Source: Promethearchaeota archaeon (GTDB lineage Archaea > Asgardarchaeota > Lokiarchaeia > Sigynarchaeales > SOKP01). Taken from it: DNA of 28,136 nt. The notes under the pieces were generated by a model, which worked only from the letters and a program-made list of their open reading frames with translations, had not been told where the DNA came from and did not search any database. Location: NCBI GenBank assembly GCA_030620005.1, contig JAUXAJ010000028.1, positions 1 to 28,136 of the forward strand. Direction: 5' to 3'. Below, in pieces: positions 2,954 through 22,110 of the stretch (position 1 is its first letter; every line of letters begins with the position of its first letter). The position numbers were made by a program, and so were the translations under genes.

Positions 2954-2987
2954 TTTCCAAGCGATTATCTTGAACCTATAATCGCTT
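2954..2987 (+). repeat. Direct repeat copy 2 with symmetric arms (candidate recombination core site)
   Basis: Positions 2954-2979 repeat 202-227. Here the site is also symmetric: AAGCGATTAT (2959-2968), a 9-bp spacer CTTGAACCT, then ATAATCGCTT (2978-2987), which is the exact reverse complement of the left arm. Ten-bp arms around a short spacer is the layout of tyrosine-recombinase core sites. It overlaps the last codons of the CoiA-like gene, so a transcription-termination hairpin is the main alternative. Confidence 0.5.
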
Positions 2988-3584
2988 CATGTCTCTAAAA
3001 TATGCTAGTCTAACGCCATTAAACACTAAGCACCTAATTTCTAACGTCCTTATTTCTTTAAACCAAGCGTCCCTATAATAAAATCTCTCGTATCCTTTTA
3101 TTACCTTCCCTAAGCCCTTATTCTTGCACGGCGTGAACTTTAACGCAAATATAAAATGCTTTACTTTACGATTGCTTTTTCTAACTTCAATATACACGAC
3201 GTTTGAAAAATATAAATTGTGTAAATAAAGCTCCTGAGGACTAATTTTTACATTTCTTTTATTTTTCCTTTTTTTTTTTGGAGATATCAATATTTTACCT
3301 TTAGTACATAAACAAAACAAGACGTGAATTCCTAACCTACTATAAAACTTGATTCTACGATAAATCTCTTTCACGCTAATATAAGAACATTGAATTTCTA
3401 TTACTATTTTCTTTCCTTCTTCTAACTCAACAAAAATATCTGCTCTTCTTTTACTTCCCTTCTTATCTTTGATTACTTTCTCTTTATGAATTTGTTTAAT
3501 GTTGTTATCGCTTTCAAGAAAAAAAAATAAAAAATCCTTAATACAATCGTGTAAGTTATTACTCTTCGATTTCAACGTTATCAA
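2976..3584 (-). CDS. CoiA-like PD-(D/E)XK nuclease
   Basis: A 202-residue protein. The central region shows the CoiA/competence-nuclease pattern: RRAD with Asp49, then VIEIQ with Glu63 and Gln65 (a PD-(D/E)XK variant ending in EIQ), followed by YISVKEIYRRIKFYSRLGI. In CoiA proteins this region reads IEIQxSxIS..E..xR...Y. In Gram-positive bacteria CoiA is induced with natural transformation and acts after DNA uptake. The C-terminal part is basic and tyrosine-rich and may contact DNA. The gene start overlaps the end of the HerA/TraG-like ATPase gene by 26 bp, so the two are probably co-translated. This is the last gene of the RPA-led operon. Family call from motifs; role inferred. Confidence 0.72.
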   Translation of the reverse strand: MITLKSKSNNLHDCIKDFLFFFLESDNNIKQIHKEKVIKDKKGSKRRADIFVELEEGKKIVIEIQCSYISVKEIYRRIKFYSRLGIHVLFCLCTKGKILISPKKKRKNKRNVKISPQELYLHNLYFSNVVYIEVRKSNRKVKHFIFALKFTPCKNKGLGKVIKGYERFYYRDAWFKEIRTLEIRCLVFNGVRLAYFRDMKRL

Positions 3585-5088
3585 AGAATCCCCTATAACT
3601 AAGATAATTATTCAAATAAATTTCTTCTTCTGATAACCAATACCTTTCTTGTAACGGTGTGTAAATTAAAAACGGTCTATTCATCGAACCAACCTTAACC
3701 AAGCATTCCCCTTCCTTCAACATTGAAATTAAGTCTTCTTTATTTTTGTGTAAATTAATTAATTCTCTTATAAATTTTTTAGACACGTTGTTCCTAAATA
3801 TTACTATTACTCCCGCGTTTTGTAAAACCTCTTTACTAATAGATGGTTTTGTGGCTAGTGTTATTAAACATTCTCCCGTACCTCTCAATAACATTGCAAT
3901 ATCTTCTATATAAGAACTTAACTTTGTACTCTCTGTAAAAGTATCTGGTACAAAATATTGCGCGTCTTCAACTATTGTAACATGTTCCATCCCAGTATAA
4001 TCTTTTGCGCCAATTTTTAAATTGCTATCCCATAAATATTTTAAAACCATGTTAAGAAAAAATATTGCGTCTTCCTTCCTCCCTCCTAACCTTATTATAG
4101 AACTTAAATCTAACAAAACATTCATTTTAAAAAACTTTTTTATGTTTAACTCTTGACTTACAGCAAATATCTGTTTTAATGATCCCGTACTATATCTCCG
4201 AATTCTATTTCTTATTGCAAAAACTGTTTGCTCTAAAGATTTAATCACCCTTCTATTTTCTGCTAAATACCAAGAACAAACTTCGTTAAAATTCTCCCAA
4301 TTTCTTTTTTCGCTATCTTTACAAACTTCTAAAAGAATGTCATAAAAAACCTTTTCCATTTGTGGCGTATATTCCACCTCCTCAAACATCCCTCCTTCTT
4401 TAAATATCTCTAAAATGCGCTCTACGTGAATTTCCACATTTGACTCAAGTGGATCAAATATGTTTATCGAATAATTCTCGCCGGGTTTCAATACTACTAA
4501 ATTGTGAATTATTTCTTGTAAATAAACGTACTCTCCTTTAAATTCGCTCAATAGAAACGGTACATTGTAATTCTTAACAAAATTTTTTAATAAATACTGC
4601 AAAAAATTAGATTTGCCCGTTCCCGAAGCGCCTATTATGCACATGTGGTGTTCTAAATCCCCTTTATTAAGATAATAAGAATATAATTTCCTCCCCTTGT
4701 AAACTATTTTTCCAATTTTAATTTTACCCTTTCTGGCTCGTAAAAACGAAGGGTGTTCTAAATTTAATTCTTGAACGTCTCTTATTTTCTTAATTATTAA
4801 AACAAATCCTAAACTCACGAATAAAGAAGTTTGTGAACAAAAAACTAAAACACTTGATATTAAATCATCATGAACGTAATTATTAACATTAATAAAAAAT
4901 ACAACAAACAATAAACAACAAAAAATCAATAACAATTTATTTATTACTTTCAATAAATTAACTCTTAATATTTCTCGCTTTTCTGATCTATATCTAAAAA
5001 AATAATATATAACACTAATAACAAAAATCATACTACAATACCAGAAATAATCCAATAATTTAATATCTTTAATAAACACTTTAATCAT
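3559..5088 (-). CDS. Membrane-anchored HerA/TraG (VirD4)-type DNA-pumping ATPase
   Basis: A 509-residue P-loop ATPase. Three hydrophobic segments occupy about residues 14-32, 50-67 and 77-99. Walker A is GASGTGKS at 153-160 and Walker B is VTIVEDAQ at 370-377. It is followed by an ITLATKPSISKEVLQNAG segment like the sensor region of HerA/VirD4 ATPases (TQxP...N). N-terminal membrane anchors plus this motor fit a type IV coupling protein or a CedB-like ATPase more than the soluble HerA of DNA-end resection. Immediate neighbours are a polytopic membrane protein upstream and a CoiA-like nuclease overlapping downstream, a set suited to moving DNA through the membrane. Start: the ATG at 5088 has GAGGG only 1-2 nt before it, so the GTG at codon 4, better spaced, is possible. 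Confidence 0.82.
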   Translation of the reverse strand: MIKVFIKDIKLLDYFWYCSMIFVISVIYYFFRYRSEKREILRVNLLKVINKLLLIFCCLLFVVFFINVNNYVHDDLISSVLVFCSQTSLFVSLGFVLIIKKIRDVQELNLEHPSFLRARKGKIKIGKIVYKGRKLYSYYLNKGDLEHHMCIIGASGTGKSNFLQYLLKNFVKNYNVPFLLSEFKGEYVYLQEIIHNLVVLKPGENYSINIFDPLESNVEIHVERILEIFKEGGMFEEVEYTPQMEKVFYDILLEVCKDSEKRNWENFNEVCSWYLAENRRVIKSLEQTVFAIRNRIRRYSTGSLKQIFAVSQELNIKKFFKMNVLLDLSSIIRLGGRKEDAIFFLNMVLKYLWDSNLKIGAKDYTGMEHVTIVEDAQYFVPDTFTESTKLSSYIEDIAMLLRGTGECLITLATKPSISKEVLQNAGVIVIFRNNVSKKFIRELINLHKNKEDLISMLKEGECLVKVGSMNRPFLIYTPLQERYWLSEEEIYLNNYLSYRGFFDNVEIEE

Positions 5089-5099
5089 GCCCTCTTATA

Positions 5100-5708
5100 T
5101 TATAAAAATAAAGGTAAACAAGTAGTAAATCCCATTAAAAGTCCGTCTATAATAGCAAATACTAAAGTTTTAAATGTAGCGTCTATGATTCTTGAACCTT
5201 CCTTATTTATTATTTTATACAAGCATAATACAATTGTTAATAATGACATGAACGAACCAAATGCTACTAAATAATAAATCGTTCTTTCGTGAGGATATTT
5301 TGACGTTTCAATATCTTCAATTCTATTCATTAAACTTGGATCTATTACTCCAGCAAAATTAAAAAAACTAAAAATAAATCTATCAGGTAAGAAATCTAAT
5401 GCATGTATTAAAACGTAAATCATGTAATCAAAAAACATTCCATACCCAATAGAAACATATAATAAACCTACAATCACTTTAGGAACTATCATCGCCTTTT
5501 TTTCGTAATAACTCGTTGCTCTATGAACTTTATAAACTCCTCTCATTCTAACTAACGTTAAAATTCCAATAATCACCAAAATAATCCCAAAAATATATTT
5601 TAAATATTGAAAAATGATAATAATAAAAAAATTAAATTGACTACAAAAGTTCTCTAATCCAACAATTATTTCACTAATTAACTCATTACCCATTTCCTTT
5701 AACAACAA
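5100..5708 (-). CDS. Polytopic membrane protein, paralogue of the one at 12303
   Basis: A 202-residue protein with about four membrane helices (near residues 26-48, 76-100, 145-165 and 178-198). The middle reads ALDFLPDRFIFSFFNF and the end GFTTCLPLFL. The 206-aa protein at 12303-12923 has the same layout, with CFDFLPTPLFLNFFNK and GVTPS...YLPLLP at matching places. A third, decayed copy lies at 9521-9640. The TTG start is supported by GGAGG about 8 nt upstream. It sits 11 bp before the HerA/TraG-like ATPase gene, so a channel or membrane-platform role with that ATPase is plausible. No named family recognised; VirB6/CedA-like function is only an analogy. Confidence 0.8.
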   Translation of the reverse strand: MLLKEMGNELISEIIVGLENFCSQFNFFIIIIFQYLKYIFGIILVIIGILTLVRMRGVYKVHRATSYYEKKAMIVPKVIVGLLYVSIGYGMFFDYMIYVLIHALDFLPDRFIFSFFNFAGVIDPSLMNRIEDIETSKYPHERTIYYLVAFGSFMSLLTIVLCLYKIINKEGSRIIDATFKTLVFAIIDGLLMGFTTCLPLFL

Positions 5709-5712
5709 TCTT

Positions 5713-6573
5713 TTATCCTCCTTCCTTAACTAATAATCTTTCAATTTCTTTTTCTAATTCATTTAAATAATAACTTTGCAATATCTGTTCCCTTTTTTCC
5801 TCATCAATTCTCTTCTTTCCTTTCTTCTTACTATCCTTCCTTTTTTTCTCTTCTCTTCTTTTATCCTTCTTTTTTTTCTCTTCTCTTCTTTTATCCTTCT
5901 TTATAAATTCTCTAAACTCCTCATTATCATCATCAATGAATTCCCTAAATTCCTCGTATATTTCCTTATCTGTCATTCTTTTCTTCTTAATTTCCTCATC
6001 ATCTATTCCCTCATGTAAATCAATATCACCTAATATTTCGTCATCTGTCATGACCTCACGCTTCTTTTTTTTCTCTTCTTCCATGACTTTTAACATGCCC
6101 AACAAGTTTTCATCCCTGCTCTTTTTGTCGTTTTCTTCTTTAGATACTCTATAATCGTCGTTTTTATAACCTCTTACTTGAAAATTTTTATCAACAAAAG
6201 CTTGAAAACCATGTTCACACGCTAAACCCTTATCAATATAAATAGTCGCTAAACTCCTGCTTTCTTTTACTACACTTTCGGGAATATCAACTTCCTTGCG
6301 CTCGTGACAAATTGGACAAACTACTAAAACCTTCTTAAAAGTTTTAGAATCGTTCCTTTTCTCGCCGATTTCTTCTTTTATTAAATTTGAAATCTTTGCG
6401 ATCTCTACCCCTAAATTCTCTTTTTTTGGTCTAACTACTTTATGTGCCTTCTTGATGTACGAAACTGCTTGTTTTGTTTTTCCAAATTTGTCTCCAATTT
6501 CTTGTAAAGTTAAATCAGTCGTTTCCAATAACTTGGTTATCTGTCTAGTACTTTCCTTAATTTTTCTTCCCAT
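5713..6573 (-). CDS. HTH plus zinc-binding protein with a highly charged tail
   Basis: A 286-residue protein. Residues 18-45 form a helix-turn-helix (LTLQEIGDKFGKTKQAVSYI), typical of sigma-70-r4-like or resolvase-type HTHs. Residues 86-121 hold CPIC (C86, C89) and CEH (C119, H121), a likely zinc site in a compact beta domain ending in VDKNFQVRGY. The rest is a Lys/Glu/Arg-rich tail with an exact two-copy 10-residue repeat (KDKRREEKK-type). The ATG start has GGTGA about 9 nt upstream. It sits between the RPA module and the transfer-type genes in one operon, so it may be the operon regulator or a DNA-bound scaffold. Function inferred. Confidence 0.75.
   Translation of the reverse strand: MGRKIKESTRQITKLLETTDLTLQEIGDKFGKTKQAVSYIKKAHKVVRPKKENLGVEIAKISNLIKEEIGEKRNDSKTFKKVLVVCPICHERKEVDIPESVVKESRSLATIYIDKGLACEHGFQAFVDKNFQVRGYKNDDYRVSKEENDKKSRDENLLGMLKVMEEEKKKKREVMTDDEILGDIDLHEGIDDEEIKKKRMTDKEIYEEFREFIDDDNEEFREFIKKDKRREEKKKKDKRREEKKRKDSKKKGKKRIDEEKREQILQSYYLNELEKEIERLLVKEGG
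5841..5900 (-). repeat. Exact 30-bp tandem duplication in the HTH/zinc gene
   Basis: Positions 5841-5870 and 5871-5900 are identical. On the coding strand each unit gives ten residues of the Lys/Arg/Glu-rich tail. The identity at DNA level points to a recent in-frame duplication. Confidence 0.85.
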
Positions 6574-6814
6574 TACTCTTCGTCACCATTGCTTCTATCA
6601 TTTCCCGTTTTATTCCGATTTCTTTCAAATCAATTAAAACCGACAACATTTCAACTACTTCTAACCTTCTTGCCCGAGGAATTTGCGTGCCGTAAACAAG
6701 CAAGATTAATCGTCTAATAAATGTTTCAGATAAACGCTCGGATTGTTCTACTTTCTTGTTAATCTTTTTAGTAACTCCAATTAACCTGAACAATTCTAAG
6801 CTTTCTTTTATCAT
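6557..6814 (-). CDS. Small 85-aa protein of unknown function in the RPA operon
   Basis: An all-helical, charged 85-residue protein with no recognised family. Its ATG overlaps the stop codon of the OB-fold gene upstream (ATGA overlap at 6811-6814), and its 3' end overlaps the start of the HTH/zinc gene by 17 bp. This translational coupling supports it as real. By position it may work with the RPA pair or be a small DNA-binding regulator. Nothing in the sequence decides between these. Confidence 0.65.
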   Translation of the reverse strand: MIKESLELFRLIGVTKKINKKVEQSERLSETFIRRLILLVYGTQIPRARRLEVVEMLSVLIDLKEIGIKREMIEAMVTKSNGKKN

Positions 6815-7266
6815 ATTAAATCTACAAATTTTTTAGCTTCTTCCAAATTAATAATTCCTTTAGTCTTAATCTTTAGAGCGATCAATAACTCGTGGTATCT
6901 CTTGTGTAATTGAAAACTTTCAAGTTCCATCTTTTTAATGATTTCAATATTCACGTATTTTTTCCCGTCTACTTCTTTGATTAATCCTATTACCTTAACG
7001 AGATCTCCTTCCTTTATCGAATCGTTATCTTCGTACAATAACGCCCTTAACTTCCCAGTTCCGTCTCCTAACATGTAATTAACTCCCTTGTTGTCAACCG
7101 TGTTAAAAAATTCCCGCCTTTCTAATATCTTCCCCATTAATTTCAATCTCTTTACCTTGCCTAATACCGTGAATAAAATCCCTAATTTATTGGTAAAAAA
7201 TCCCTCGTCAACGTGACTTATTAACAATCGTTTAGTAGGATACCTTTCATACCGTCTCGTTACCAT
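6811..7266 (-). CDS. OB-fold RPA-associated protein (RPA2/RPA3-like)
   Basis: A 151-residue protein. The central part has the OB-fold pattern of archaeal RPA-associated proteins: a strand-rich start (GILFTVLGKVKRLKLMG), YMLGDGTGKLRALLYE in the middle, and a closing strand after EGDLVKVIGLIKEVDGKKYV. Residues 1-20 are basic. It follows and overlaps the RPA gene by 20 bp, with GGAG before its ATG, the usual arrangement of an archaeal RPA with its small partner (COG3390-type). It probably forms a complex with the 565-aa RPA on single-stranded DNA. The C-terminal helices (after about residue 115) may carry the partner contact. Confidence 0.8.
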   Translation of the reverse strand: MVTRRYERYPTKRLLISHVDEGFFTNKLGILFTVLGKVKRLKLMGKILERREFFNTVDNKGVNYMLGDGTGKLRALLYEDNDSIKEGDLVKVIGLIKEVDGKKYVNIEIIKKMELESFQLHKRYHELLIALKIKTKGIINLEEAKKFVDLI

Positions 7267-8944
7267 TATCTTGCTCCCCTATTTTTTTTATAAGCTCCTC
7301 TATTTCCTTTTTAATGTCCAAAAATTCGTAATCGTGAACAAATAACTCAAAAGATTTTGAAAAATTTGAAAATCGCGCTTTTCCGCGAACAACAAGGTCT
7401 TGTCCTAATAACTCCTCTGAACGCTCGTTTATGAACCTCTTGTAATCAAGAGTATCTTCGATTTTTTTTAACTTCCCTGCCTCGTGTCCTAACACCCTCT
7501 CTGCTTGATCCCCAATAAACACTACTCTTATTGTACCGCTTCCGTCGTCCATTATGACGCTGAGTATCGTTTTTAATTCAAAACCATTATCGCCCTCACA
7601 CTTGCAATTTTCTTCCTTTTTCATGCATTTTAAACACGCTTTATATATAGTGACCTTACCACTAAACCCCTTTACAACTAACCCTTTTACCTCGTAATAT
7701 CCGCTATCTACGATCTCGTCAATTTCACTAAACTTGTAATTACCAATAATATGTTTAACAATATTATCAAAATTTAAATCTTCTGTAACTTCTATTATAC
7801 TTTCGTTTAAAATAGAAACTTCGTTTACTCTAAGATAACCGTTAAATTTCACCAAAATATTTCTTAAAATTACTGAATTCCCTTTTTCTAATAAACTCTT
7901 GTACTTTTCTATCATTTCATTCCATAATACTACTCGTATTGTACCGCTATCATCGCTTACCGTGACAACATGATTTGTTTTCTTATTAGAATCGAGCGCT
8001 TTTCTATTAAACACGTTATTAACTATTCCCTTAAAACTTGAAATTTCTCCTTTTTTCAATTCGTTTATCTTTACAAATGAACTTATAAATAAATCTAAAG
8101 ACATTTTCACTTTTTTAACTTCAGTATTTAAAGTACTATTCAATTCAATAGAATTTTTATATTCGTTAAATCTTGACAATAAATTTGTAATCATTATAAT
8201 ATCATCTAATTTGAAAGCCCTAATCTTTTCAACAAAATCATCCCAAAAATTAATTATTATTGACTTCGTAGAATCTAACAACAAGATGGTTAAAATTTTT
8301 CCCTTCTCTCCAGTCTTTTTTCTAAATTCCTTCTCTTGAAATATCTGAACAATCTTTCCCTTAACTGAAACAGAATAATTCCTCTCGTTAATATCGCTTA
8401 TCAAAACAATTTCGTTCTTTATTTTCTTAATTTTCTTTGTATCATCTGAAATTATTTCTATTTTACCATCCATTGCTAAATGAATTTCAATTCCTCGATA
8501 TTTCCCGCTCTTCACATTACCATTACTCAACCTTAATAAAGTATTCACTTTAAAATTTTCATCGTTCAAAATTTTTACTTGATCGTTCCACAATACAACC
8601 CAAACACTCCCAGTATTATCTTGCATTAAAAAAGATCCCACGTGACCTTCTACTCCATTTGAAACAAAAGATCTAACATTATCTATTTGCTTTATCCTAC
8701 CTATTAAAGTCACGTCAACCATGCCAATTTCAATACCAGAAATATTTAATTCTTCTTGGTCTAAATCCTTTAAATCTTGTTGCTTTTCTCCCTTTATATT
8801 AACATTTAACTCTTTAGCAATAAGAAAAACTGCCCCTTCTTTTGAAAGTAAACCTTTAAATTCTTCTTCCCTCTCTTTAATCATCGCGTTAATTTCCTTT
8901 TTACCTAACCCCGTGGCTTCTATAATTTTATTAATGGCACTCAT
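7247..8944 (-). CDS. Single-stranded DNA-binding protein RPA, large subunit with zinc finger
   Basis: A 565-residue archaeal RPA. The N-terminal 50 residues are helical with the typical LLSKEGAVFLIAKELNV segment. Four OB folds follow at about 70-165, 180-275, 295-385 and 412-540, with the repeated signature DxSGTIRVVLWN (DNTGSVWVVLWN, DDSGTIRVVLWN, DDGSGTIRVVF). The last fold carries a zinc finger with C437, C440, C447 and C449. RPA coats and protects single-stranded DNA in replication and recombination. It heads a minus-strand operon continuing through the OB partner to the HerA/TraG-like ATPase and CoiA-like nuclease. This context suggests an element-encoded copy for transferred DNA rather than the housekeeping gene, but the host copy is not in view. 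ATG start, GAGG about 10 nt upstream. Confidence 0.9.
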   Translation of the reverse strand: MSAINKIIEATGLGKKEINAMIKEREEEFKGLLSKEGAVFLIAKELNVNIKGEKQQDLKDLDQEELNISGIEIGMVDVTLIGRIKQIDNVRSFVSNGVEGHVGSFLMQDNTGSVWVVLWNDQVKILNDENFKVNTLLRLSNGNVKSGKYRGIEIHLAMDGKIEIISDDTKKIKKIKNEIVLISDINERNYSVSVKGKIVQIFQEKEFRKKTGEKGKILTILLLDSTKSIIINFWDDFVEKIRAFKLDDIIMITNLLSRFNEYKNSIELNSTLNTEVKKVKMSLDLFISSFVKINELKKGEISSFKGIVNNVFNRKALDSNKKTNHVVTVSDDSGTIRVVLWNEMIEKYKSLLEKGNSVILRNILVKFNGYLRVNEVSILNESIIEVTEDLNFDNIVKHIIGNYKFSEIDEIVDSGYYEVKGLVVKGFSGKVTIYKACLKCMKKEENCKCEGDNGFELKTILSVIMDDGSGTIRVVFIGDQAERVLGHEAGKLKKIEDTLDYKRFINERSEELLGQDLVVRGKARFSNFSKSFELFVHDYEFLDIKKEIEELIKKIGEQDNGNETV

Positions 8945-9010
8945 GACTTATTCCTCATTTTATTTACATGCATTTTTTATTACAAAATTATTTAAATCAA
9001 ACCATTTTTT

Positions 9011-9039
9011 TGTGTAAAATATGCTTTCTATGTGTAAAA
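9011..9039. promoter_or_regulatory. Direct-repeat operator candidate in the RPA/AbrB divergent region
   Basis: TGTGTAAAA occurs at 9011-9019 and again at 9031-9039, exactly 20 bp apart, or two helical turns. On the minus strand the repeats lie just upstream of an AT-rich TATA-like box (ATTTAAAT region near 8985-8998) for the RPA operon. They are within the 243-bp region shared with the divergent AbrB-like gene, so this protein is a natural candidate to bind here. Inferred. Confidence 0.45.
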
Positions 9040-9187
9040 CATTGTAATGCATGACCTTTTTGGTAATAAAATCGAACTATTTGTTAGAAAATACTAATCT
9101 CTAACTTAGTCGAAAATTATCGATCTTAAAATATCTTTTTTTTAAAATATACCATGAAAGAGAATAATAAAATATTCGTGGTAAAAA

Positions 9188-9529
9188 TTGAAATTTAGCG
9201 TCCCGTTAAGAGAAATCGAAAGAAGGACTAAAAAAGGCGTCTCAAAATCGATTAGCTTCATCATTCCTCCGGCTAAAATTAAAGAACTTGAATTAATCCC
9301 CAAGGACGTGATATATATACACGCTTGTGGGATATTCGCCGAAAAAAATCAAACCGATCCCTCCCCTTTAGACCTGTCCTTCTACGCCGAAGTGTCGAAA
9401 GCGGGCGGATCTTCCTTGCAAATTACTATTAGAAAAAATTACGTGAATCGATACAACTTAAAAAACGAAAATGAACTCGTCATTGACCAAATGGTAGTCA
9501 CTAAAAAAGTTAAGCCGTTTCTACAATAA
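9188..9529 (+). CDS. AbrB-like protein with two internal repeats (first paralogue)
   Basis: A 113-residue protein starting at TTG (GGT about 6 nt upstream). It looks like two AbrB/SpoVT-type half-barrel repeats in one chain. The first is SKSISFIIPPAKIKELELIPKD followed by the strand VIYIHACGIFA. The second is SKAGGSSLQITIRKNYVNRY followed by LVIDQMVV. It is a paralogue of the protein at 16526 (shared GI-strand, VSK.GG.SSL.ITI core). Both are transcribed away from a recombination gene, here RPA. AbrB-fold proteins bind DNA as regulators or antitoxins; autoregulation of the divergent operon is the simplest role. The fold call is from pattern only. Confidence 0.68.
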   Translation: MKFSVPLREIERRTKKGVSKSISFIIPPAKIKELELIPKDVIYIHACGIFAEKNQTDPSPLDLSFYAEVSKAGGSSLQITIRKNYVNRYNLKNENELVIDQMVVTKKVKPFLQ

Positions 9530-9640
9530 AGACAAGCTTAAAATTATCTGTAAAGAAGGCGTGACTCCAAATACTATCAATAAGAACAAGTACAAACACT
9601 ATCAATAAGAACGTGTTTTTCACTATTCGTGACTTCTTTC
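9521..9640 (-). pseudogene. Decayed third copy of the island membrane-protein gene
   Basis: Reading the minus strand from about 9589 to 9521 gives FLLIVFGVTPSLQIILSL and a stop. This closely matches the C-terminus of the protein at 12303 (FLLIIFGVTPSLRIILYL). Upstream, SRIVKNTFLLIVF in another frame resembles SRIIDATFKTLVF of the protein at 5100. A 25-bp imperfect duplication (15-bp core repeated) shifts the frame between them. Only about 40 codons survive, with no start, and the stop overlaps the end of the convergent AbrB-like gene. It is a remnant rather than a working gene. Confidence 0.6.
9573..9612. repeat. 15-bp direct repeat, 25-bp period
   Basis: ACTATCAATAAGAAC at 9573-9587 is repeated at 9598-9612. 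The 25-bp period is not a multiple of three and breaks the frame of the membrane-protein remnant in which it lies, which explains the decay. Confidence 0.75.
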
Positions 9641-9687
9641 GTTGTTGTCATTAGCGTTTCTCTCTTTTTTTATTTCAATTTCAAAAC

Positions 9688-10566
9688 TCAAGGTTTTTTT
9701 AATTCTTTTTTTAAAATTTTACGCATCTTTTCGGTGAATTCCCTTTTTTCTTTGGATTCTACAAGAATTTTTTTTACGACAAAAAGTAAACTTTCCCGTA
9801 AAATTTCTGCGTCTATTAAACAATCCTCATCAGATTTCTTATGAATACCCCCACTGAGTTTCTTATGGATGGTCTTTAATGGGTTAAATTCTTCAGGATT
9901 TAATACGGGAGGTAATAAATCGTAGACTAATTCTATTTTTTTGGATGTGTTTTTAGTCTGCTTAACTTGTTTTAAAGCTTCTTCGTATATTTCTTTATCC
10001 CTTCCTTCCATTAATTCAGGAATTGAATCTAACAGGTAGTCGATTATTTCTTCAATTATCCGTCGGTAGTAGGCAAATGCACCAATTCCATAACTCTGGG
10101 ATTCGCAGATTTTACCATTTTTATAATATTTTTCGCATTTATTCAATATCTCTTTTAATTCCTTTTCAATAGATATATCCCATGGTGGATACTGTCCAAT
10201 TTTCTGTACATAACTCAGATTCTTATCGATCTTTAATAAAAAATATCTATTATAATCATTACAAGAAGCACAGTAATAGGCACATCTAACTATTATATCT
10301 TCATTATATCTTTTAGTGAATTCTTTAAAATTTATCTCACTATAATTTGTAGACATATCCTTCTGGAAAGGACTATAAAAACTATTTAAGGAATTAAATG
10401 TGCGAACACTTTTACATATTTTACAATACATGTTTATGTTTACAACCTTAATATCAGATAAATAATATGGTAATTCACCAATATTCATTTTTTTATATAA
10501 AGGATATTTCTCAAATAGTTCTTTAGTAAAGACTTTAATTTTTAGTTTTTTAAGACGCATTATCAC
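9688..10566 (-). CDS. DUF4145-like zinc-ribbon protein
   Basis: A 292-residue protein. CxxC pairs at C48/C51 and C99/C102 (plus C95) make a zinc ribbon. Then come VQKIGQYPPWD and a helical C-terminal region with YGIGAFAYYRRIIEEI, the pattern of DUF4145-type proteins (A..RR..E in a helical, HEPN-like domain). Such proteins occur in bacteria and archaea, often beside restriction or abortive-infection genes, and their function is not established. The lysine-rich tail ends next to the membrane-protein remnant. The neighbouring AbiJ-like gene supports a defence setting. It is a single gene with its own AT-rich upstream region. The start may be the second Met (MRLKK), two codons in. Confidence 0.6.
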   Translation of the reverse strand: MIMRLKKLKIKVFTKELFEKYPLYKKMNIGELPYYLSDIKVVNINMYCKICKSVRTFNSLNSFYSPFQKDMSTNYSEINFKEFTKRYNEDIIVRCAYYCASCNDYNRYFLLKIDKNLSYVQKIGQYPPWDISIEKELKEILNKCEKYYKNGKICESQSYGIGAFAYYRRIIEEIIDYLLDSIPELMEGRDKEIYEEALKQVKQTKNTSKKIELVYDLLPPVLNPEEFNPLKTIHKKLSGGIHKKSDEDCLIDAEILRESLLFVVKKILVESKEKREFTEKMRKILKKELKKP

Positions 10567-10940
10567 AAATTTTTTATTCCGTTTTTTTTTTATATCAATT
10601 TATTTATAGTATTTTTTTTATAAAAATCATTAACATTTTAATTATTAAAGGTGAATAAGTTAATTTTTCTATTTTTTTCTTTTGATCTCTTTTTAAAATG
10701 CCAAAACATTTAAGGTTATGAACGATTGTCCCTCTGAGCGTGTAACCTTGAAGTTAGAATTTCATTGAGGTTTTCTTGAGATGATAAATGAACTTGAAAA
10801 TAATAATGTAAGTCATATTTTACTCTATTGTAATTTTTAATAATTTTATTCAAAAATCTCATGCTAACCTATTTCAAATTTTATGGATGTGTTTTTTACT
10901 TTTAATTTTGACATATTCAAATTGCACCTATCATTTATAC
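10567..10940. other. 374-bp non-coding stretch
   Basis: Very AT-rich. It holds the upstream region of the DUF4145-like gene, and a short inverted pair AAGGTTA / TAACCTT (near 10711-10750) flanking a less AT-rich 25-nt segment. No convincing open frame, tRNA or C/D-box RNA was found. Confidence 0.5.
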
Positions 10941-11816
10941 CTAACTTTTTGTAGTCTCCAATCTCGAATATTTCTCTTTTAGATAATTAACAAATGCACT
11001 GCAAGAAACGAGCATGTATTTCGCGTCTTCAAATCGTAAATCTTCGTCCTTAACGTCCATTAAACCGTGCCTTATTCCACTTGCACCACTAGTGTAGCTA
11101 TAGAGATTTCCAAAAGCCTTTCTCAATTTAGCGTGCAAAGGAAAATATTCATTGATTTTTTTTAACGCATTCGTTAATGTGCTACTTTTTTTGCCTGTAA
11201 TGATATTACACATTGATTCTACTGCTGATATTGATTCCTTAATGGAATTTCTATAATCTGGGTTTTCTTTTTCTGATAAATGTATTAACGCTTGGTTTAA
11301 ATGCACTTCAACGGGTTTAAATTGATTTTCTTGAGTCATCGCCCTTTCAATCTCGTCAATCTCTAATTTTGAAGTAATTGGAGATATTATTTCGCCAACA
11401 AATCTATATCCTGAATTTTCTCTCTCAAAAACAATATTGCATTCTTTAATAAAATCAATCTTATATTGACTATGTTTATAAGAACTGTGCTTGTACAATA
11501 AGTTAGCAATAACCTCTAAAAAATTTAATATCTCATACCATCTAAAATTAGAGATATATTCATCTTTTAACGATTTTCGGGCAGTTAAATAAAAAAAATC
11601 ATCGAGAATTTGGTGTAAAAACTCTCCCCATACAACGATCTTAAATTGTTTGAAATATAAATTACTTGCTATATTTCGATGTACAATCGGAGGTTTAATT
11701 TTGTCTAAAAAATGGAGGCTTATTTTATTGTATAAGCCAATTTTTAACTCTTGGTCGATATTTTCCAACGAAAATGGTTTTTTCATGGTATAACCATATC
11801 TTTCTGAAAATTTCAT
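10941..11816 (-). CDS. AbiJ-like abortive-infection protein (NTD4 type with HEPN-like C-terminus)
   Basis: A 291-residue protein. The N-terminus (FSERYGYTMKKP...IDQELKIGLYN) matches the opening of AbiJ N-terminal-domain-4 proteins (F.ER.G.....+Q...+...LR..LWN). The C-terminal third has SIKESISAVESMCNIITG, then TNALKKI, and YTSGASGIRHGL with R249-H250. This is the helical HEPN-like region seen in this family, whose RxxxxH-type residues often make an RNase. Such proteins are implicated in phage-resistance abortive infection. It is a monocistronic minus-strand gene beside a DUF4145-like gene, inside an island that otherwise looks like a transfer element. Catalytic activity is inferred. Confidence 0.72.
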   Translation of the reverse strand: MKFSERYGYTMKKPFSLENIDQELKIGLYNKISLHFLDKIKPPIVHRNIASNLYFKQFKIVVWGEFLHQILDDFFYLTARKSLKDEYISNFRWYEILNFLEVIANLLYKHSSYKHSQYKIDFIKECNIVFERENSGYRFVGEIISPITSKLEIDEIERAMTQENQFKPVEVHLNQALIHLSEKENPDYRNSIKESISAVESMCNIITGKKSSTLTNALKKINEYFPLHAKLRKAFGNLYSYTSGASGIRHGLMDVKDEDLRFEDAKYMLVSCSAFVNYLKEKYSRLETTKS

Positions 11817-11917
11817 TTTTAATTGAATAAAAATTCTTTCGATACTAACCTAAGGTAATCCTAAGAATTAAATTCATCTATTAAACTTCTAATAATGTAG
11901 ACAGTACGCTTGTTTTT

Positions 11918-12271
11918 TTAACCAATATAATCAAGTTCTTCTTGTACTACTGCTATAACTACCATTTTTTTTTCAAAAAATAATAGATGTAATTTTACAA
12001 ATTCTTCATTGATATTATCAAGCTTTTTGGGATCTTTTGAAAAAGATGCTAAGTAATTTGTTCTTATATTCTCTTTAATAATTGGATGATAGATTGTTAT
12101 TGGCGGATCGTAATGAATGATTCTACCCTTGCATCCTTTTATGTCTAAACATTCCCTATTTGTACCTATAAATTTCATTATCATATCCATTGTATTCTCG
12201 GTATCTTCTTTCTTTTCTCTTTTTTCTTTCTTTTCTTTTAACTTTTCAATTTTTTTAAAGTTTACACCCAT
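11918..12271 (-). CDS. Small lysine-rich protein of unknown function
   Basis: 117 residues from the ATG at 12271, chosen because GAGG lies about 7 nt upstream; a TTG nine codons earlier is possible. Residues 4-25 are almost all Lys/Glu/Arg and may form a charged helix. The rest has a beta-rich look (GRIIHYDPPITIYHP, VVIAVVQEELDY). No family recognised. It begins 32 bp downstream of the membrane-protein gene at 12303 and is probably the last gene of the RadA-led operon. Confidence 0.6.
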   Translation of the reverse strand: MGVNFKKIEKLKEKKEKREKKEDTENTMDMIMKFIGTNRECLDIKGCKGRIIHYDPPITIYHPIIKENIRTNYLASFSKDPKKLDNINEEFVKLHLLFFEKKMVVIAVVQEELDYIG

Positions 12272-12302
12272 ATTTTTCCTCTTTAATTTTTTTTTCAATT
12301 TT

Positions 12303-12923
12303 TTAATTCTGTGGTAATAAGGGCAAATATAAGATGATCCTTAGTGATGGAGTGACTCCAAAAATGATCAATAAAAACACTCCTAAAAGGAAAAACGACA
12401 TTGGCTTATACTTCGTTCTCAAGATCGATTTATTAAACGCAATTAAATAAATACCAATGCTAAAAAAGATGATCCCCAAAAAAGAAAGCAATCCCGTGAA
12501 ACGAGCGAAAAATAATTCAAAAATCTTTAATTCGCTGTCCGTTAAATTAATCTCGTTAAAGAGATTTTCTTTATTGAAAAAGTTGAGGAAAAGCGGTGTC
12601 GGTAAGAAATCAAAACATATTAACAACAAATACGTTAAAAGTTTGAATAAAAAGCCAAATCCAATTAAAATATAAACTATCGTCCCTATTCTACCTTTCT
12701 TCTTGATATATTCTAAATTAACTCCGTGAATCATCTCGTCATTTTCCTTGCTCTTCGCACTCCACAATAGGTTCACTCCTAACCCCAAGTGTACCAAGAA
12801 CAAAATGAAATTCGCGAACTGAAAGATGAGAAAAGATACATCGTTAAAACTCTCTGCAAAACTGCTTAAGGTGTCCCATATTTGACTCATGACATCATCA
12901 AAAGGATTCATTTTAACTTTCAC
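12303..12923 (-). CDS. Polytopic membrane protein, paralogue of the one at 5100
   Basis: 206 residues with four to five membrane helices (near 29-52, 80-103, 143-163, 172-190). It aligns end to end with the 202-aa protein at 5100: shared IVYILIGFGFLF.../IVGLLYVSIGYGMFF, DFLP.x.F..FFN and a C-terminal TP.../LPL segment. Here the gene is not next to the HerA/TraG-like ATPase but ends the second operon, so the two copies may be subunits of one membrane complex. The reading starts at GTG 12923; an ATG four codons in is equally possible. The upstream gap holds the large inverted repeat at 12960-13031. Confidence 0.78.
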   Translation of the reverse strand: MKVKMNPFDDVMSQIWDTLSSFAESFNDVSFLIFQFANFILFLVHLGLGVNLLWSAKSKENDEMIHGVNLEYIKKKGRIGTIVYILIGFGFLFKLLTYLLLICFDFLPTPLFLNFFNKENLFNEINLTDSELKIFELFFARFTGLLSFLGIIFFSIGIYLIAFNKSILRTKYKPMSFFLLGVFLLIIFGVTPSLRIILYLPLLPQN

Positions 12924-12959
12924 GCTCTTTCTTTAAATATTCTTCGTTCAATAAATGAA

Positions 12960-13031
12960 GGGAGAACCGGAGGCGGTAAAAAGACCAAAATTTTCCCCGC
13001 AATTTTGAAAAGAAGATCCTCCCGTTCTCCC
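12960..13031. repeat. Large nested inverted repeat
   Basis: GGGAGAACCGGAGG (12960-12973) pairs with CCTCCCGTTCTCCC (13018-13031) with one mismatch in 14. Inside lies a second hairpin, CAAAATT ... AATTTTG, around a CCCCGC loop. The arms are far richer in GC than the surroundings. It lies between the RHH regulator gene and the membrane-protein gene in the same orientation. It could be a terminator or processing hairpin splitting the operon, a regulator site, or a recombination/transfer-origin element. Confidence 0.7.
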
Positions 13032-13066
13032 ATGATTATCCTGATGTTTTTTAACAATCCTCATTC

Positions 13067-13273
13067 TTATATTATTTTAACATCTGAATTTTTCTTTTTC
13101 GTGAAATTTGAATTAATTTTCTTTAACTGCTCTAATTGCTCAATTCTCCTTCGTGTAGCCTCGATTATGAATTCAGAATGCGACCTATACCCTAATTCAT
13201 TATCAATTTTTATTAGTGTTAATATCGTTTTTACCAAATCTTCTGGTACCCTTACCGTTCTATAAGTCACCAC
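13067..13273 (-). CDS. Ribbon-helix-helix DNA-binding protein
   Basis: 68 residues with the classic RHH/CopG layout: strand YRTVRVPEDLV (residues 4-14), then two helices including DNELGYRSHSEFIIEATRRR. A short basic tail follows. RHH proteins bind operators as dimers of dimers and are common on plasmids as copy-control, partition or antitoxin proteins. Its GTG start lies within the 3' end of the upstream 87-aa gene (14-bp overlap). The nested inverted repeat just downstream is a possible target. Confidence 0.82.
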   Translation of the reverse strand: MVTYRTVRVPEDLVKTILTLIKIDNELGYRSHSEFIIEATRRRIEQLEQLKKINSNFTKKKNSDVKII

Positions 13274-13523
13274 TAGTTTTATCGCCTCTGTCTTTTATTC
13301 TAAAAGGATTAAGTATCGTGGTGGCTCGAAAACTACCAACAGTGAGGATTCCTAACTTCCTAAAAATCCACTCGTAAAAAGAATGACTAAGTAAGGGATC
13401 GTACAATACCATCTGAATCCCCTTAATTAAGTCGTTATCGTTGTTTCTTTTCTCGTTTTCTTCTTTCTCTTCTATTTCTTGGTTGATTTTTTTTAACCTA
13501 ATATCCTTCATTTTTAACTCCAT
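13260..13523 (-). CDS. Small charged protein upstream of the RHH gene
   Basis: 87 residues from the ATG at 13523; a TTG five codons earlier is possible. The N-terminal half is a Lys/Glu-rich helix, and the C-terminal half is mixed (LIKGIQMVLYDPLLSHSFYE). No family recognised. The 3' end overlaps the RHH gene, and an antitoxin-toxin-like or partner relation is possible but unsupported. Confidence 0.55.
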   Translation of the reverse strand: MELKMKDIRLKKINQEIEEKEENEKRNNDNDLIKGIQMVLYDPLLSHSFYEWIFRKLGILTVGSFRATTILNPFRIKDRGDKTSGDL

Positions 13524-13602
13524 GTTATATTTTTCCAATATAAATATAAAAAATGCGTTTTTTTATCGGTAACTCCCTTTCTTTCACGCGATCACCCATT
13601 CT

Positions 13603-13761
13603 TTAATCTCCTCCCTTTCCGTTGCTGTCGTTTATAATATTTTCTGTTTTCCGTTCAAGCAACCTATAAATTTCGTAAATAACGTACAAAATAACTAACG
13701 AAATTACCCAATGAAGTTCTACATAATTGTAAATTTCAATCAAAATATCAAGCCAATTCAT
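13603..13761 (-). CDS. Small single-span membrane protein
   Basis: 52 residues from the ATG at 13761, with AGGAAGAAAG upstream. An upstream in-frame extension is only Lys/Glu filler overlapping the previous gene. One helix, about residues 14-35 (WVISLVILYVIYEIYRLL), is preceded by an amphipathic start and followed by a polar tail. Size and context suggest an accessory subunit of a membrane complex. No family recognised. Confidence 0.55.
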   Translation of the reverse strand: MNWLDILIEIYNYVELHWVISLVILYVIYEIYRLLERKTENIINDSNGKGGD

Positions 13762-13777
13762 TTTTCTTTCTTCCTGA

Positions 13778-14059
13778 TTATATCCATTTTTTTTTCTTTT
13801 TTCTTTTTTCTTTAATTTCTTCAATTTTTTTCTCTAAATGAGAAAAAAGGACACCATGATTTTTTCTAAATTTTATAACCTCTTTGTATACCGATATTTC
13901 GTCTTTAAATTTTTTATAATACTTTTTGTTTTTTTTACAAGGACATTCAAAAGTTATGAAAAATTTCTTGCCTTTTTTTATCATCCTTATTTTGTGTGGA
14001 AGATCTAATATAGTTTCGTTGTCTAATCTAAACAATGCGCTATATTGAATTTGATTCAT
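13778..14059 (-). CDS. Small basic protein with a CPC motif, unknown
   Basis: 93 residues. The first half is strand-rich (ALFRLDNETILDL, GKKFFITFECPCKKNKKYY). The second is a Lys/Glu-rich helix. The CPC pair could bind metal but has no obvious partner pair. It lies 17 bp upstream of the single-span membrane-protein gene. No family recognised. Confidence 0.5.
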   Translation of the reverse strand: MNQIQYSALFRLDNETILDLPHKIRMIKKGKKFFITFECPCKKNKKYYKKFKDEISVYKEVIKFRKNHGVLFSHLEKKIEEIKEKRKKKKKWI

Positions 14060-14082
14060 TTAAACCTTGTAAATTTTTTTTC

Positions 14083-14107
14083 CTTTCTTTCTTTCTTTCT
14101 TTCTTTC
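14083..14107. repeat. CTTT microsatellite
   Basis: Six CTTT units plus one base between two minus-strand genes. It reads GAAAG repeats on the coding strand, just upstream of the 93-aa gene, and could vary in length by slippage. Confidence 0.85.
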
Positions 14108-14113
14108 AAGTGG

Positions 14114-14602
14114 TCACCAATTCTTTTCGATCACGATCTTCTGTGCAATAATTTCTCTCGCAATTTGAACCAAAGCTTGTCTCCATTCTTTTTTTTGTTC
14201 TAATTCAGCCCATTGCTCTCCAGTTAACTTGTAATAATCTTCTCCGAGCGTTGCTTTCATTCTCTCAAAAATCTCTTCGTAAGCGCACCATTGCTCGACT
14301 ATTTCTGGACATTTAAAATACAGCCGACCATTAATCTTGATTGTATCCGTGAATTTCTCCGTTAATACCTCCGATAGTTCGGATTCAAGATTTTTTTTTT
14401 TAATCCTGTAACTTTTCACATTAAACGGTCTTATTATCATTATAAATATCTTACCACTCGTCAAACCTCTGATTTCTTTTTCACCAATCGTTACGCCATG
14501 CTCTTCTTTAAGTTCAAAAATAACTTCTTCTTCTTCTTCTCCCGTTTCTCTAGCAATTTTTTCCAACAATAATAACGCTTCCTTAAAGATATTCTCGCTC
14601 AC
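14114..14602 (-). CDS. Unknown 162-aa protein in the RadA operon
   Basis: The GTG at 14602 is chosen as start because GGAGG lies 7 nt before it; the upstream in-frame ATG (14620) would bury that site within the gene. The N-terminal 45 residues look like a small helical domain (ALLLLEKIARETGEEEEEV). The middle is strand-rich with a YFKCPEIVEQW segment, and the C-terminus is helical with KKEWRQALVQIAREIIA. No family recognised. It overlaps the preceding acidic gene by a few bases only if the ATG is used. Confidence 0.6.
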   Translation of the reverse strand: MSENIFKEALLLLEKIARETGEEEEEVIFELKEEHGVTIGEKEIRGLTSGKIFIMIIRPFNVKSYRIKKKNLESELSEVLTEKFTDTIKINGRLYFKCPEIVEQWCAYEEIFERMKATLGEDYYKLTGEQWAELEQKKEWRQALVQIAREIIAQKIVIEKNW

Positions 14603-14616
14603 ATCGTTCCCTCCTT

Positions 14617-14820
14617 TCATTTTCCGTCTAATTTCTTCTCAAGATCTGTTTTATCGTTTTTATCTTCTCCTTCCTTTCCTATGCTGTCGTTTTCTTCTAA
14701 TTTTTTAGCAAATCCCCTAAATAAGTTTATCTCAATCATATTTTCTAAGAATTCTTTTTGCATTTCTACACTTACTTCATTTTCTTGGTCTTCGCTTTCT
14801 TCAAGTTCCTCATCGCTCAT
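14617..14820 (-). CDS. Small acidic protein, unknown
   Basis: 67 residues from the ATG at 14820, with GAGG about 10 nt upstream. A TTG-started longer form would run through the 56-aa frame at 14840-15010. The composition is dominated by Glu/Asp/Lys, with one hydrophobic helix-like piece (NMIEINLFRGFAKKL). Acidic small proteins of plasmids and viruses often bind basic partners, but nothing here fixes a function. Confidence 0.5.
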   Translation of the reverse strand: MSDEELEESEDQENEVSVEMQKEFLENMIEINLFRGFAKKLEENDSIGKEGEDKNDKTDLEKKLDGK

Positions 14821-14839
14821 GTTATCATCCTCATGGTTT

Positions 14840-15010
14840 TTAAGGCGGGAAAACGCACGAATTTCCAATGAAGTCCCCACGACTTTGCGAGTTATTGCAT
14901 AAAAAAAATTTAGGAAAATCTTTTTTCGTGCGTTCTCCCATGATTTCAACAATCATGCCGTAATCGTCTACCTTATCTTGCCTTAACCCTTGATACCCGT
15001 AATTAATCAT
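14840..15010 (-). CDS. Candidate 56-aa gene directly after radA
   Basis: Begins at the ATG 4 bp after the radA stop and reads MINYGYQGLRQDKVDDYGMI, continuing to a TAA at 14840. The first 30 residues look coding (DDYGMIVEIMGERTKKDF). There is no clear ribosome-binding site. It competes with a TTG-initiated frame that extends the acidic protein, and only one of the two is likely real. Spacing to radA favours this one. Confidence 0.35.
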   Translation of the reverse strand: MINYGYQGLRQDKVDDYGMIVEIMGERTKKDFPKFFLCNNSQSRGDFIGNSCVFPP

Positions 15011-15014
15011 TTTT

Positions 15015-16151
15015 TTAAATCGTTATTTCGTTATTTTTCGCTTTTCTTTTTAATTCTTCAACATTAGGATCGTAATAAATATCTCGAATGCCATCTTTTG
15101 TAATTTTAAATATTGCCTCCGTTCCATTTTCGTGAATTGGCGATTGTAATAGTTGAGCATTTTTTATGTCGCTATCTCCGTTCCCATATAAAGAAACTCG
15201 AATCACCGAACCGTGAGCCACGATATTACCTCCAGCCCAAAAATTTTTTCCCGCCCCGCCTCCTTTTAAATCTGGTTTCATGGTGACTTGATTCGTTACC
15301 ACGAACGCAACATCTGGAAACTCTTCTGCAAGCCTCTTCAACTGTTGAATGTGCCTGCCAAGTAATTGTTGCCTTACTTTAACTGCGCCTCCAATGTACT
15401 CGCTTCGAAAATTGGCAATTATCGAATCAATTACTACTAACTTGATGTTTTTAGCTTTAATGTAAATGGGAACTTTCGCTTTTATTATACGAATTTGTTC
15501 GTCGCTATCTAGAGTTTTTTCTAAAAAAATATTTTTTCTGGCTTTTGAAGGATTTAATCCGTAGGGCGCGCACATTTGTCCAATTCTTCCCGATCTAAAT
15601 GTGGTTTCCGTTCCAATATACAAAGCGTTACCGTTCAAGCCTCCTTTATCGAGTGGTAATTGAGCGTTCACGCACAATTGGTGTGCCAATTGAGTTTTTC
15701 CCATGCGTGATGCCCCAAAAAACTCCGTAATTGCCCCTGTTTCGACACCGCCTCCTAAAATATTATCCAAGGATTTAGAAGAAGTTGTTATCCTTCGCAT
15801 TTTCAACCTTTTATCGTGATCTTCCTCAGCAGACATTAAGCCTTTTTTCGTTAACAGTCTAGCCCCGTGTAAAAGCTTCGTTGCGTACTTTTCCCCGATC
15901 CCTTTTATTCCTATCAGTTCTTTTCTATTCGCCAAGCTTAAGCTTCTCAAAGAAGTGATTCCTGCTGAAACTAATTTCGTTAAAATTAATCCGCTAATCC
16001 CCTTTATCTGCAAGATTTCTTTCGCCTCTTCTATGACCTTTTTAAGTTCCTCATCTGTTAATCTTGCCTGATTTGCCTCAGGTTCTCCCTTTTTTTCGCT
16101 TTTTCCGTTATCTTTTTTAATTTTCTCTAATTCTCTATTCATGACTAACAC
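15015..16151 (-). CDS. radA: RadA recombinase (RecA/Rad51 family)
   Basis: A 378-residue archaeal RadA. Residues 30-110 are the helix-hairpin-helix N-domain (GISGLILTKLVSAGITSL, GIKGIGEKYATKLL). The ATPase core has Walker A GASRMGKTQ near 146-154, where usual RadA has GEFGSGKTQ, and Walker B LVVIDSI. FRSEYIGG...RQQLLGRHIQ matches the FRAEYxGRGxLxxRQQ.LxxH block, and VVTNQV is the L2-region start. It assembles on single-stranded DNA and performs strand exchange. The variant P-loop and the setting among small plasmid-like genes with a divergent AbrB-like gene suggest an element-encoded copy, not the chromosomal housekeeping gene. The first codon may be GTG 16151 or the ATG three codons in. Confidence 0.92.
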   Translation of the reverse strand: MLVMNRELEKIKKDNGKSEKKGEPEANQARLTDEELKKVIEEAKEILQIKGISGLILTKLVSAGITSLRSLSLANRKELIGIKGIGEKYATKLLHGARLLTKKGLMSAEEDHDKRLKMRRITTSSKSLDNILGGGVETGAITEFFGASRMGKTQLAHQLCVNAQLPLDKGGLNGNALYIGTETTFRSGRIGQMCAPYGLNPSKARKNIFLEKTLDSDEQIRIIKAKVPIYIKAKNIKLVVIDSIIANFRSEYIGGAVKVRQQLLGRHIQQLKRLAEEFPDVAFVVTNQVTMKPDLKGGGAGKNFWAGGNIVAHGSVIRVSLYGNGDSDIKNAQLLQSPIHENGTEAIFKITKDGIRDIYYDPNVEELKRKAKNNEITI

Positions 16152-16525: not shown

Positions 16526-16867
16526 ATGGAAGAATTGCCGTTTCGCGTGTCTTTAGTCTCTGCTGGTGAACCTGACGAAAAAGGTTTACGATCTCTTAGG
16601 TTCAATCTTAAACCTTCTATTAAAAAAGCTTACAAACTTGCTAAAGACGACGTGTTGTATATTATAGTTATCGGAATTTACAAAAATAAATCTTCAACTG
16701 AAATAAATCCTGTCGAATTCTCGTTTTTTGGAACGGTGAGTAAAACGGGTGGAAGGAGTTCTTTAGGAATAACTATTGAAAAAGACGAAATAAGACGGAG
16801 AAATTTAACTGAAAATACTGATCTTGAAATAAAAGTCAAAGTTATCTCTAGAACTAAAAGAGAATGA
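16526..16867 (+). CDS. AbrB-like protein with two internal repeats (second paralogue)
   Basis: 113 residues, the same length as the protein at 9188 and clearly related. The first repeat is RSLRFNLKPSIKKAYKLAKDD with VLYIIVIGIY. The second is GTVSKTGGRSSLGITI, then RRRNL and LEIKVKVI. Each half has the strand-helix-strand look of an AbrB/SpoVT half-barrel, so one chain may act as a pseudo-dimer. It is transcribed away from radA, as its paralogue is from RPA. The simplest role is a regulator of the neighbouring operon. ATG start with GGTG upstream. Confidence 0.68.
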   Translation: MEELPFRVSLVSAGEPDEKGLRSLRFNLKPSIKKAYKLAKDDVLYIIVIGIYKNKSSTEINPVEFSFFGTVSKTGGRSSLGITIEKDEIRRRNLTENTDLEIKVKVISRTKRE

Positions 16868-21811: not shown

Positions 21812-21823
21812 AAACCCTAAAAC

Positions 21824-22075: not shown

Positions 22076-22110
22076 AACAATAAAGCTAAAAATATTACAT
22101 TTTAATATCT

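Follow-up and report, generated by a model that had tools for sequence, protein, structure and literature searches.

What does a small operon do that sets a membrane-anchored ATPase beside RPA and a competence-type nuclease in an Asgard archaeon? How Asgard archaea exchange DNA is, to our knowledge, an open question, and the locus analyzed here bears on it. It lies in a stretch of 28,136 nucleotides (hereafter the window; contig JAUXAJ010000028.1, positions 1 to 28,136 of the forward strand, assembly GCA_030620005.1) from a member of the Lokiarchaeia. An original prediction, made from the sequence alone, described a DNA import/export-plus-recombination machine. We find that the ATPase of this operon and its small membrane neighbor, TMP1, belong to families whose pairing genuinely recurs in other loci. 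Our leading, though tentative, reading is that the two operons of the window (2976-16867) belong to a foreign island of a Lokiarchaeal chromosome, part of a mobile element or of what is left of one, and that they may encode a DNA-transfer and recombination module similar in concept to the Ced system.

The first operon consists of seven minus-strand open reading frames (ORFs) transcribed in the order RPA, OB-fold-like protein, 85-amino-acid (aa) protein, helix-turn-helix (HTH)/CxxC protein, TMP1, ATPase and CoiA (Table 1). This layout, as well as the gene calls, agrees with the prediction. Described there as tightly overlapping, the genes do overlap at four of the six junctions, but the other two are short gaps (-20, -4, -17, +4, +11 and -26 bp in order of transcription). 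Likewise, the operon itself fits within the predicted span of 2976 to 9529, but the end of that span takes in a plus-strand gene, SW1, that stands outside it. The overlapping junctions on a single strand suggest co-transcription, and homologs of the ATPase, CoiA and TMP1 in other genomes indicate that the operon is more than a run of chance ORFs.

A membrane-anchored ATPase and its small membrane partner

The predicted membrane anchor of the ATPase is supported by a structure model (predicted local distance difference test score, pLDDT, 84) that places transmembrane (TM) helices at residues 11-35, 43-66 and 76-102, followed by the motor. The fold matches HerA, DndH, VirB4 and TrwB, the first three of which are inseparable by Z. 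Among NCBIfam models the order of matches is CedD (2.4e-15), VirB4 (2e-5) and HerA (1.6e-3), all under the curated cut-offs (for CedD, 56.2 bits relative to a cut-off of 600), and the CedB model gives no match at E 0.01. Across 38 aligned members of the family, CedD matches 28, HerA_Thermprot 27 and CedB 19.

The family is centered on the Lokiarchaea, and an archaeal origin of the DNA is supported. A protein search scored 7994 candidates and recovered 437 at E <= 0.001; the named rows among 120 listed matches are mostly Lokiarchaeota or Promethearchaeota. Genome contigs yielded 65 loci, of which 64 bear the label Lokiarchaeota or Lokiarchaeia; the exception, L016, is assigned to Patescibacteria. 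Pattern scans with the ATPase recovered no relative from a collection of viral contigs. Besides the ATPase and a TMP, the L016 contig (8.8 kb) encodes a GmrSD protein and weakly matches Phage_integrase (9.9e-5, under cut-off); its label is perhaps a binning error and the contig a misbinned Lokiarchaeal element. We refer to the 44 ATPases encoded near a thermosome or OBG-type GTPase gene as core and to the other 22 as accessory. A quick tree was built from 67 rows after removal of every other core row and of all sequences below 300 aa; its outgroup branches are long. There the window ATPase pairs with P0002 (support 100; 70% identical) and then P0003 (99), within a set of 21 rows that comprises 14 metagenomic sequences, six accessory copies and the window copy (Shimodaira-Hasegawa-like approximate likelihood ratio test, SH-aLRT, 99).

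Other genomes of the phylum also encode long relatives of about 800-1440 aa (L139-L149). Three or more N-terminal hydrophobic stretches are present in L139, L140, L141, L145 and L149, and one in L142, L143 and L148. These are widely held Asgard ATPases for which we know of no described role.

TMP1 has about four TM helices in its structure model (pLDDT 81.5), which gives no significant fold match; a crude count finds five peaks. Pfam returns a chance-level match only, and none of the 90 rows of the protein search, including the window's own, contains a Pfam domain. TMP matches at E 0.001 occur in 49 of the 227 genomes of the phylum, some of them partial or weak. The 65 ATPase loci (953 kb) contain nine TMP ORFs at E 1e-5, and all nine either adjoin the ATPase or lie within about 2.1 kb of it. 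Six of these pairs are separated by 25-61 bp and one by 101 bp, while one has a 93-aa gene and another two genes in between. Three pairs are in tandem, three divergent and three convergent. A TMP neighbor accompanies 8 of the 22 accessory ATPases and 1 of the 44 core ATPases, counts in which neighbors can be missed because 33 of the 66 ATPase ORFs have less than 2.5 kb of DNA on one side. Viewed from the TMP, the ATPase family is out of view at 14 of 20 examined loci; at L103 and L110 the TMP lies near RPA.

The remaining products of the first operon are recognizable to different degrees. Identification as a CoiA-like nuclease held, based on the CoiA_nuc domain and the conserved R.AD and E.Q motifs retained in an alignment with 20 rows. 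Its relatives occur in 52 of the 227 genomes; 17 of 20 examined CoiA loci have neighbor family c8 or c15 close by, and the ATPase and TMP were seen at none of the 20. The RPA large subunit has several OB folds and a C-terminal Rep_fac-A_C domain above the Pfam cut-offs; NCBIfam replication factor A models match under theirs. Aligned over 429-551 positions, 15 RPA rows from Lokiarchaea share 36-42% identity with it. At 13 loci a core ATPase has an RPA relative at a distance of 8-10 kb. A sixteenth row (L012; 29% over 156 positions) is a nuclease-OB protein: this 371-aa product (L012:6599-7714), encoded 2.2 kb away from an ATPase-TMP pair, combines a staphylococcal-nuclease domain with an OB-like stretch. 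The partner proposed for RPA fared less well, as the OB match of the 151-aa protein is weak. The cysteine domain of the HTH protein is common among Lokiarchaeal genomes, with relatives in 92 of the 227 genomes.

A second operon, its setting and its relatives

A further minus-strand run (12303-16151) has RadA as its first gene and TMP2 as its last, confirming that RadA is encoded in a separate operon 6 kb away. RadA scores above the NCBIfam PRK04301 cut-off (283.7 relative to 259 bits) and below that of TIGR02236 (273 relative to 361). A pairwise comparison shows TMP1 to be homologous to TMP2 (6e-7), and iterated profiles started from either collect 28 hits spread over 27 loci. A quick tree built from 33 TMP rows groups TMP2 with L007, L012, L043 and the copy from genome G120 (100), and TMP1 with P0122 (100). 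P0122 is 61% identical to the window TMP; the JGI contigs behind it reach 9709 bp and those behind the ATPase row P0002 reach 9701 bp, and the two may or may not stem from one piece of DNA. The two operons share an architecture: each holds one TMP and each diverges from one copy of the same small regulator-like gene, SW1 or SW2. We take SW1 to be AbrB-like by eye; Pfam gives no match.

Table 1. Features of the two operons and their divergent small genes (positions in the window)
Feature	Position	Strand	Basis or remark
CoiA-type nuclease, 202 aa	2976..3584	-	Pfam CoiA_nuc 9e-11
Membrane-anchored DUF87/HerA-fold ATPase, 509 aa	3559..5088	-	Pfam DUF87/HerA 2.5e-12; three predicted N-terminal TM helices; Walker A GASGTGKS
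TMP1, small membrane protein, 202 aa	5100..5708	-	About 4 TM helices; recurrent neighbor of the ATPase family
HTH + CxxC...C.H domain + charged tail, 286 aa	5713..6573	-	Weak Sigma70_r4 match, 0.0031, under cut-off
85-aa protein	6557..6814	-	ORF; no Pfam family
OB-fold-like protein, 151 aa	6811..7266	-	Weak Pfam OB match, 3.2e-4, under cut-off
RPA large subunit, 565 aa	7247..8944	-	Pfam OB folds; C-terminal Rep_fac-A_C 3.2e-9
SW1, 113 aa	9188..9529	+	Diverges from operon 1; outside the operon
TMP2, second TMP-family member	12303..12923	-	Homology to TMP1
168-aa protein	14114..14620	-	Homologs in G117 and G120 regions
RadA recombinase, head of operon 2	15015..16151	-	Pfam, NCBIfam
SW2, SW1 paralog	16526..16867	+	37% identity to SW1, 1e-18; diverges from operon 2

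With genes for Pop5 and RNase P p30 in its right flank, the window has a chromosomal look on that side. The window is AT-rich throughout (GC 24-38% per kb), and the operons differ in composition from a pool of ten flank genes that omits three short right-flank genes (19886-20362, 21256-21621 and 25223-25543). The observed/expected (o/e) ratio of CpG is 1.45 in operon 1 and 1.38 in operon 2 relative to 0.87 in the pool, and coding GC skew is +0.43 and +0.27 relative to +0.10. Operon 1 also bears a compositional signature at wobble C, which is rare before T and kept before G. In tests chosen after the pattern had been noticed, wobble C before G accounts for 84/220 in operon 1 and 63/293 in the flanks (p 5e-5), and wobble C before T for 15/227 and 65/360 (p 6e-5). 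Convincing end repeats were not found in the window, and the element may extend beyond it. Two further features of the window lie outside the operons. Between them, at 10941-11816, is an AbiJ_NTD4 protein that matches the candidate defense family PDC-S32 (1.6e-91). At 21817-22141, broken-looking ORFs resemble, by eye, the start of a glycerophosphodiester phosphodiesterase, and may represent a pseudogene or an assembly fault.

SW1 was found in four of the 227 genomes, and in two of these it belongs to a region encoding Cdc6. In the G117 region (L176-L178), SW is accompanied by a Cdc6/Orc1 that exceeds the TIGR02928 cut-off (1.6e-72), a relative of the 168-aa protein (1.4e-21), a RadA (5.7e-55) that exceeds the cut-off of PRK04301, and an A24 prepilin peptidase (5.6e-8); a reverse transcriptase (RVT_1 1.2e-21) is also encoded within it (L176:2842-3990). 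The G120 region (L175, L179, L180, L198) contains SW, Cdc6 and a TMP (1.2e-17), with the 168-aa protein about 40 kb further on. Between the two, RadA is present in G117 only and TMP in G120 only. Common to both are a protein of 520/508 aa with 8-9 TM helices, homologous TM proteins of 907/874 aa, and a T2SSE ATPase of 730/726 aa, the G117 copy of which matches archaellum FlaI (4.4e-29) and TadA (1.4e-17). At the other SW1 loci (G002, a 3.8-kb contig, and G157) these genes were not found, save for a weak RadA match (6e-6) in G157. Relatives of some operon-2 genes do therefore occur in Cdc6-bearing regions with pilus-type motors, and a link between operon 2 and such regions is plausible. More widely, the 168-aa protein occurs in 10 of the 227 genomes and adjoins a protein of about 990 aa in six of the seven other genomes whose locus was examined; the 8-9-TM protein is present in 16 of 23 chosen genomes, with two copies each in G117 and G120.

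A comparable set is found on a chromosomal contig of the Lokiarchaeal genome G122 (C35:127000-180100; L213-L215). Within about 53 kb it encodes RPA (127.1 kb), the ATPase (144.7), Cdc6 (158.3), pieces of an A24 peptidase (159.8), the 8-9-TM protein (161.9), T2SSE (163.9), a small pilin-like ORF (176.0) and a TMP (179.5). Ribosomal and other genes are interspersed, and the arrangement is one of proximity, with no operon. The small pilin-like ORFs gave no family hit; by their motif they may be Flp-type pilins.

Transfer, maintenance or cargo

If the two operons do form a transfer module, a ring of the ATPase would sit at the membrane, seated on TMP, and pump DNA through or along the membrane. 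CoiA would trim or open the DNA, RPA and the OB protein would coat the single strand, and RadA would recombine it. The pumping step is suggested by the ATPase family and the TMP-ATPase gene pairing; the roles of CoiA, RPA/OB and RadA are suggested by operon membership. Such a module would serve the element, and a pilus, if needed, could be host-supplied. We infer DNA import or export in this sense, and should the TMP-ATPase pair prove to be a DNA pump, it would provide two concrete, testable genes and could mark one class of mobile elements in Lokiarchaea. A wider picture, which we rate as unlikely, is that Lokiarchaea possess a DNA-exchange apparatus in which a CedD-like pump on TMP works with a Tad/archaellum-like pilus (T2SSE-type ATPase, 8-9-TM protein and A24 peptidase). 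This apparatus would be encoded near a chromosomal Cdc6 gene, and mobile elements that bear Cdc6 would have acquired copies of it. The version in the window would be a compact one, equipped with a separate CoiA, RPA and RadA to process and recombine the incoming strand.

Several observations weigh against transfer by a Ced-like island. The kinship of the ATPase is divided: NCBIfam places it nearer to a Ced ATPase than to HerA, but its top PDB sequence match (1.9e-7) and top Foldseek match (4d2i) are both HerA. CedA is absent from the NCBIfam matches of 29 TMP rows at E values up to 1, and the CedA model NF041796 matches none of four Lokiarchaeal genomes, while the positive control, Sulfolobus acidocaldarius, was matched. 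No integrase, replication initiator, relaxase or pilin was recognized in the window, of which 30 ORFs were scanned with Pfam (14617-14952 left out). The machine originally predicted has its operon, its gene families and an ATPase that NCBIfam places nearest to a Ced ATPase, but a CedA-type channel, a pilin and a relaxase were not recognized among the window's genes. The TM-ATPase of the G120 region matches DUF87 at 4.6e-4, under cut-off, and that of G117 has no DUF87 match. At 202 aa, the window CoiA falls short of most of its listed relatives, the majority of which have 270-305 aa and some 340-374. Several of the TMP-ATPase loci, such as L002/L003 and L012/L043, are probably related by descent, so independent pairings number fewer than nine. 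The island is also less sharp than the pooled figures imply: the three inter-operon genes (9688-12298) have a CpG o/e of 1.04 and flank-like wobble use, individual flank genes reach 1.14, and the three short genes omitted from the pool have values of 1.37, 2.02 and 1.27.

The distribution of the ATPase adds to these points. Some relative, often distant, is present in 172 of the 227 genomes (57 at 1e-60 or better). For 44 of the 66 ATPase ORFs, but not for the other 22, a thermosome or OBG-type GTPase gene is found at a distance of 3.5 kb or less. This breadth and shared chromosomal site suggest housekeeping. They also favor a rather unlikely alternative, in which the ATPase and TMP were copied from a host machine that moves or segregates DNA at the membrane in an FtsK-like role. 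Together with RPA, RadA and CoiA, they would then serve the island in repairing, replicating and partitioning itself, and no cell-to-cell transfer would be involved. The clustering of RPA, ATPase, Cdc6 and TMP within about 53 kb in G122 is consistent with such maintenance, as are the long relatives, five of which have at least three N-terminal hydrophobic stretches (one in each of three others). Yet in the quick tree it is accessory and metagenomic copies, rather than core ones, that group with the window ATPase, and the Pfam FtsK_SpoIIIE match of this protein is weak (1.3e-4, under cut-off).

Gene order also weighs against the transfer reading. The 151-aa OB-like protein has no homolog except itself in a protein search of 62 candidates, and RPA, OB, HTH, TMP, ATPase and CoiA stand together at no examined relative locus. 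Conservation of the whole operon, whose lack in every relative the original prediction had named as one of two refuting results, is therefore absent from the loci examined, and as far as these loci show that refutation holds; what recurs is TMP beside the ATPase, in nine of 65 ATPase loci. Chromosomal relatives of the ATPase, TMP, CoiA and RPA exist in Lokiarchaea, as a rule apart from one another. The complete order, seen once only, and the scattered relatives of RPA, ATPase, TMP, CoiA, the HTH/CxxC protein and the 168-aa protein, mostly in separate places in Lokiarchaeal genomes, are what one would expect if copies of host-chromosome genes had gathered on a mobile element with no shared task. 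We consider this quite unlikely, given the overlapping junctions on one strand, with the co-transcription they suggest, and the recurrence of the TMP-ATPase pair in three orientations. Finally, it is improbable that a HerA-type ATPase and a CoiA-type nuclease here act on invading DNA beside another defense-like gene: the titles of solved HerA complexes name anti-phage systems, passages of PMC9519451 report a CoiA-domain protein from a phage-defense screen, and the inter-operon protein matches PDC-S32, but in PADLOC the ATPase matches mad8, DndH and HerA only weakly (best 7e-9), CoiA and TMP have no match there, and RPA, RadA and the membrane anchor would be left unexplained.

Comparison with known systems

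The transfer module that we tentatively favor shares single features with several described systems. Like the aloposons, transposons of Heimdallarchaea, it would represent mobile DNA in Asgard archaea, but the window lacks giant genes; the main text of PMC8813620, as far as it is represented here, does not contain the words HerA, RadA, conjugat- or competence. Of the hallmarks of conjugative elements, only the VirB4/HerA-fold ATPase was recognized in the window. It differs from type IV secretion and conjugation systems (VirB4, VirD4/TrwB) in that relaxase, VirB6 and VirB2 were not recognized, with no relaxase family among the 30 ORFs of the general Pfam scan. The nuclease resembles the CoiA competence nuclease in its domain and conserved motifs, but sits with an ATPase and RPA. 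With HerA-NurA end-resection the ATPase shares the motor fold, and HerA gives its best PDB and Foldseek matches; it differs in its three TM helices and in having CoiA in place of NurA, which matched none of the 30 scanned ORFs. Because of these helices and the lack of a NurA partner, a soluble HerA identity was rejected.

The closest parallel is the Ced/Ted system of Crenarchaeota (CedA, CedA1, CedA2, CedB, CedD). Both feature a membrane-anchored HerA/VirB4-fold ATPase, for which CedD is the nearest NCBIfam model, a small polytopic membrane partner, and recombination genes nearby. In contrast, the ATPase falls far below the CedD equivalog cut-off; TMP gives no match to CedA, and its TM helices number about four as opposed to 6-7 in the CedA/VirB6-like channel; the window operon includes a nuclease and RPA; and a CedA1-like pilin was not recognized among the scanned ORFs. 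As CedA was not detected, we do not class the module as a Ced system. Passages of PMC11868833 describe Ced acting jointly with Ups pili, and passages of PMC9905601 describe Ced/Ted pili; the G122 neighborhood, with its pilus-type genes near the ATPase and TMP, recalls both.

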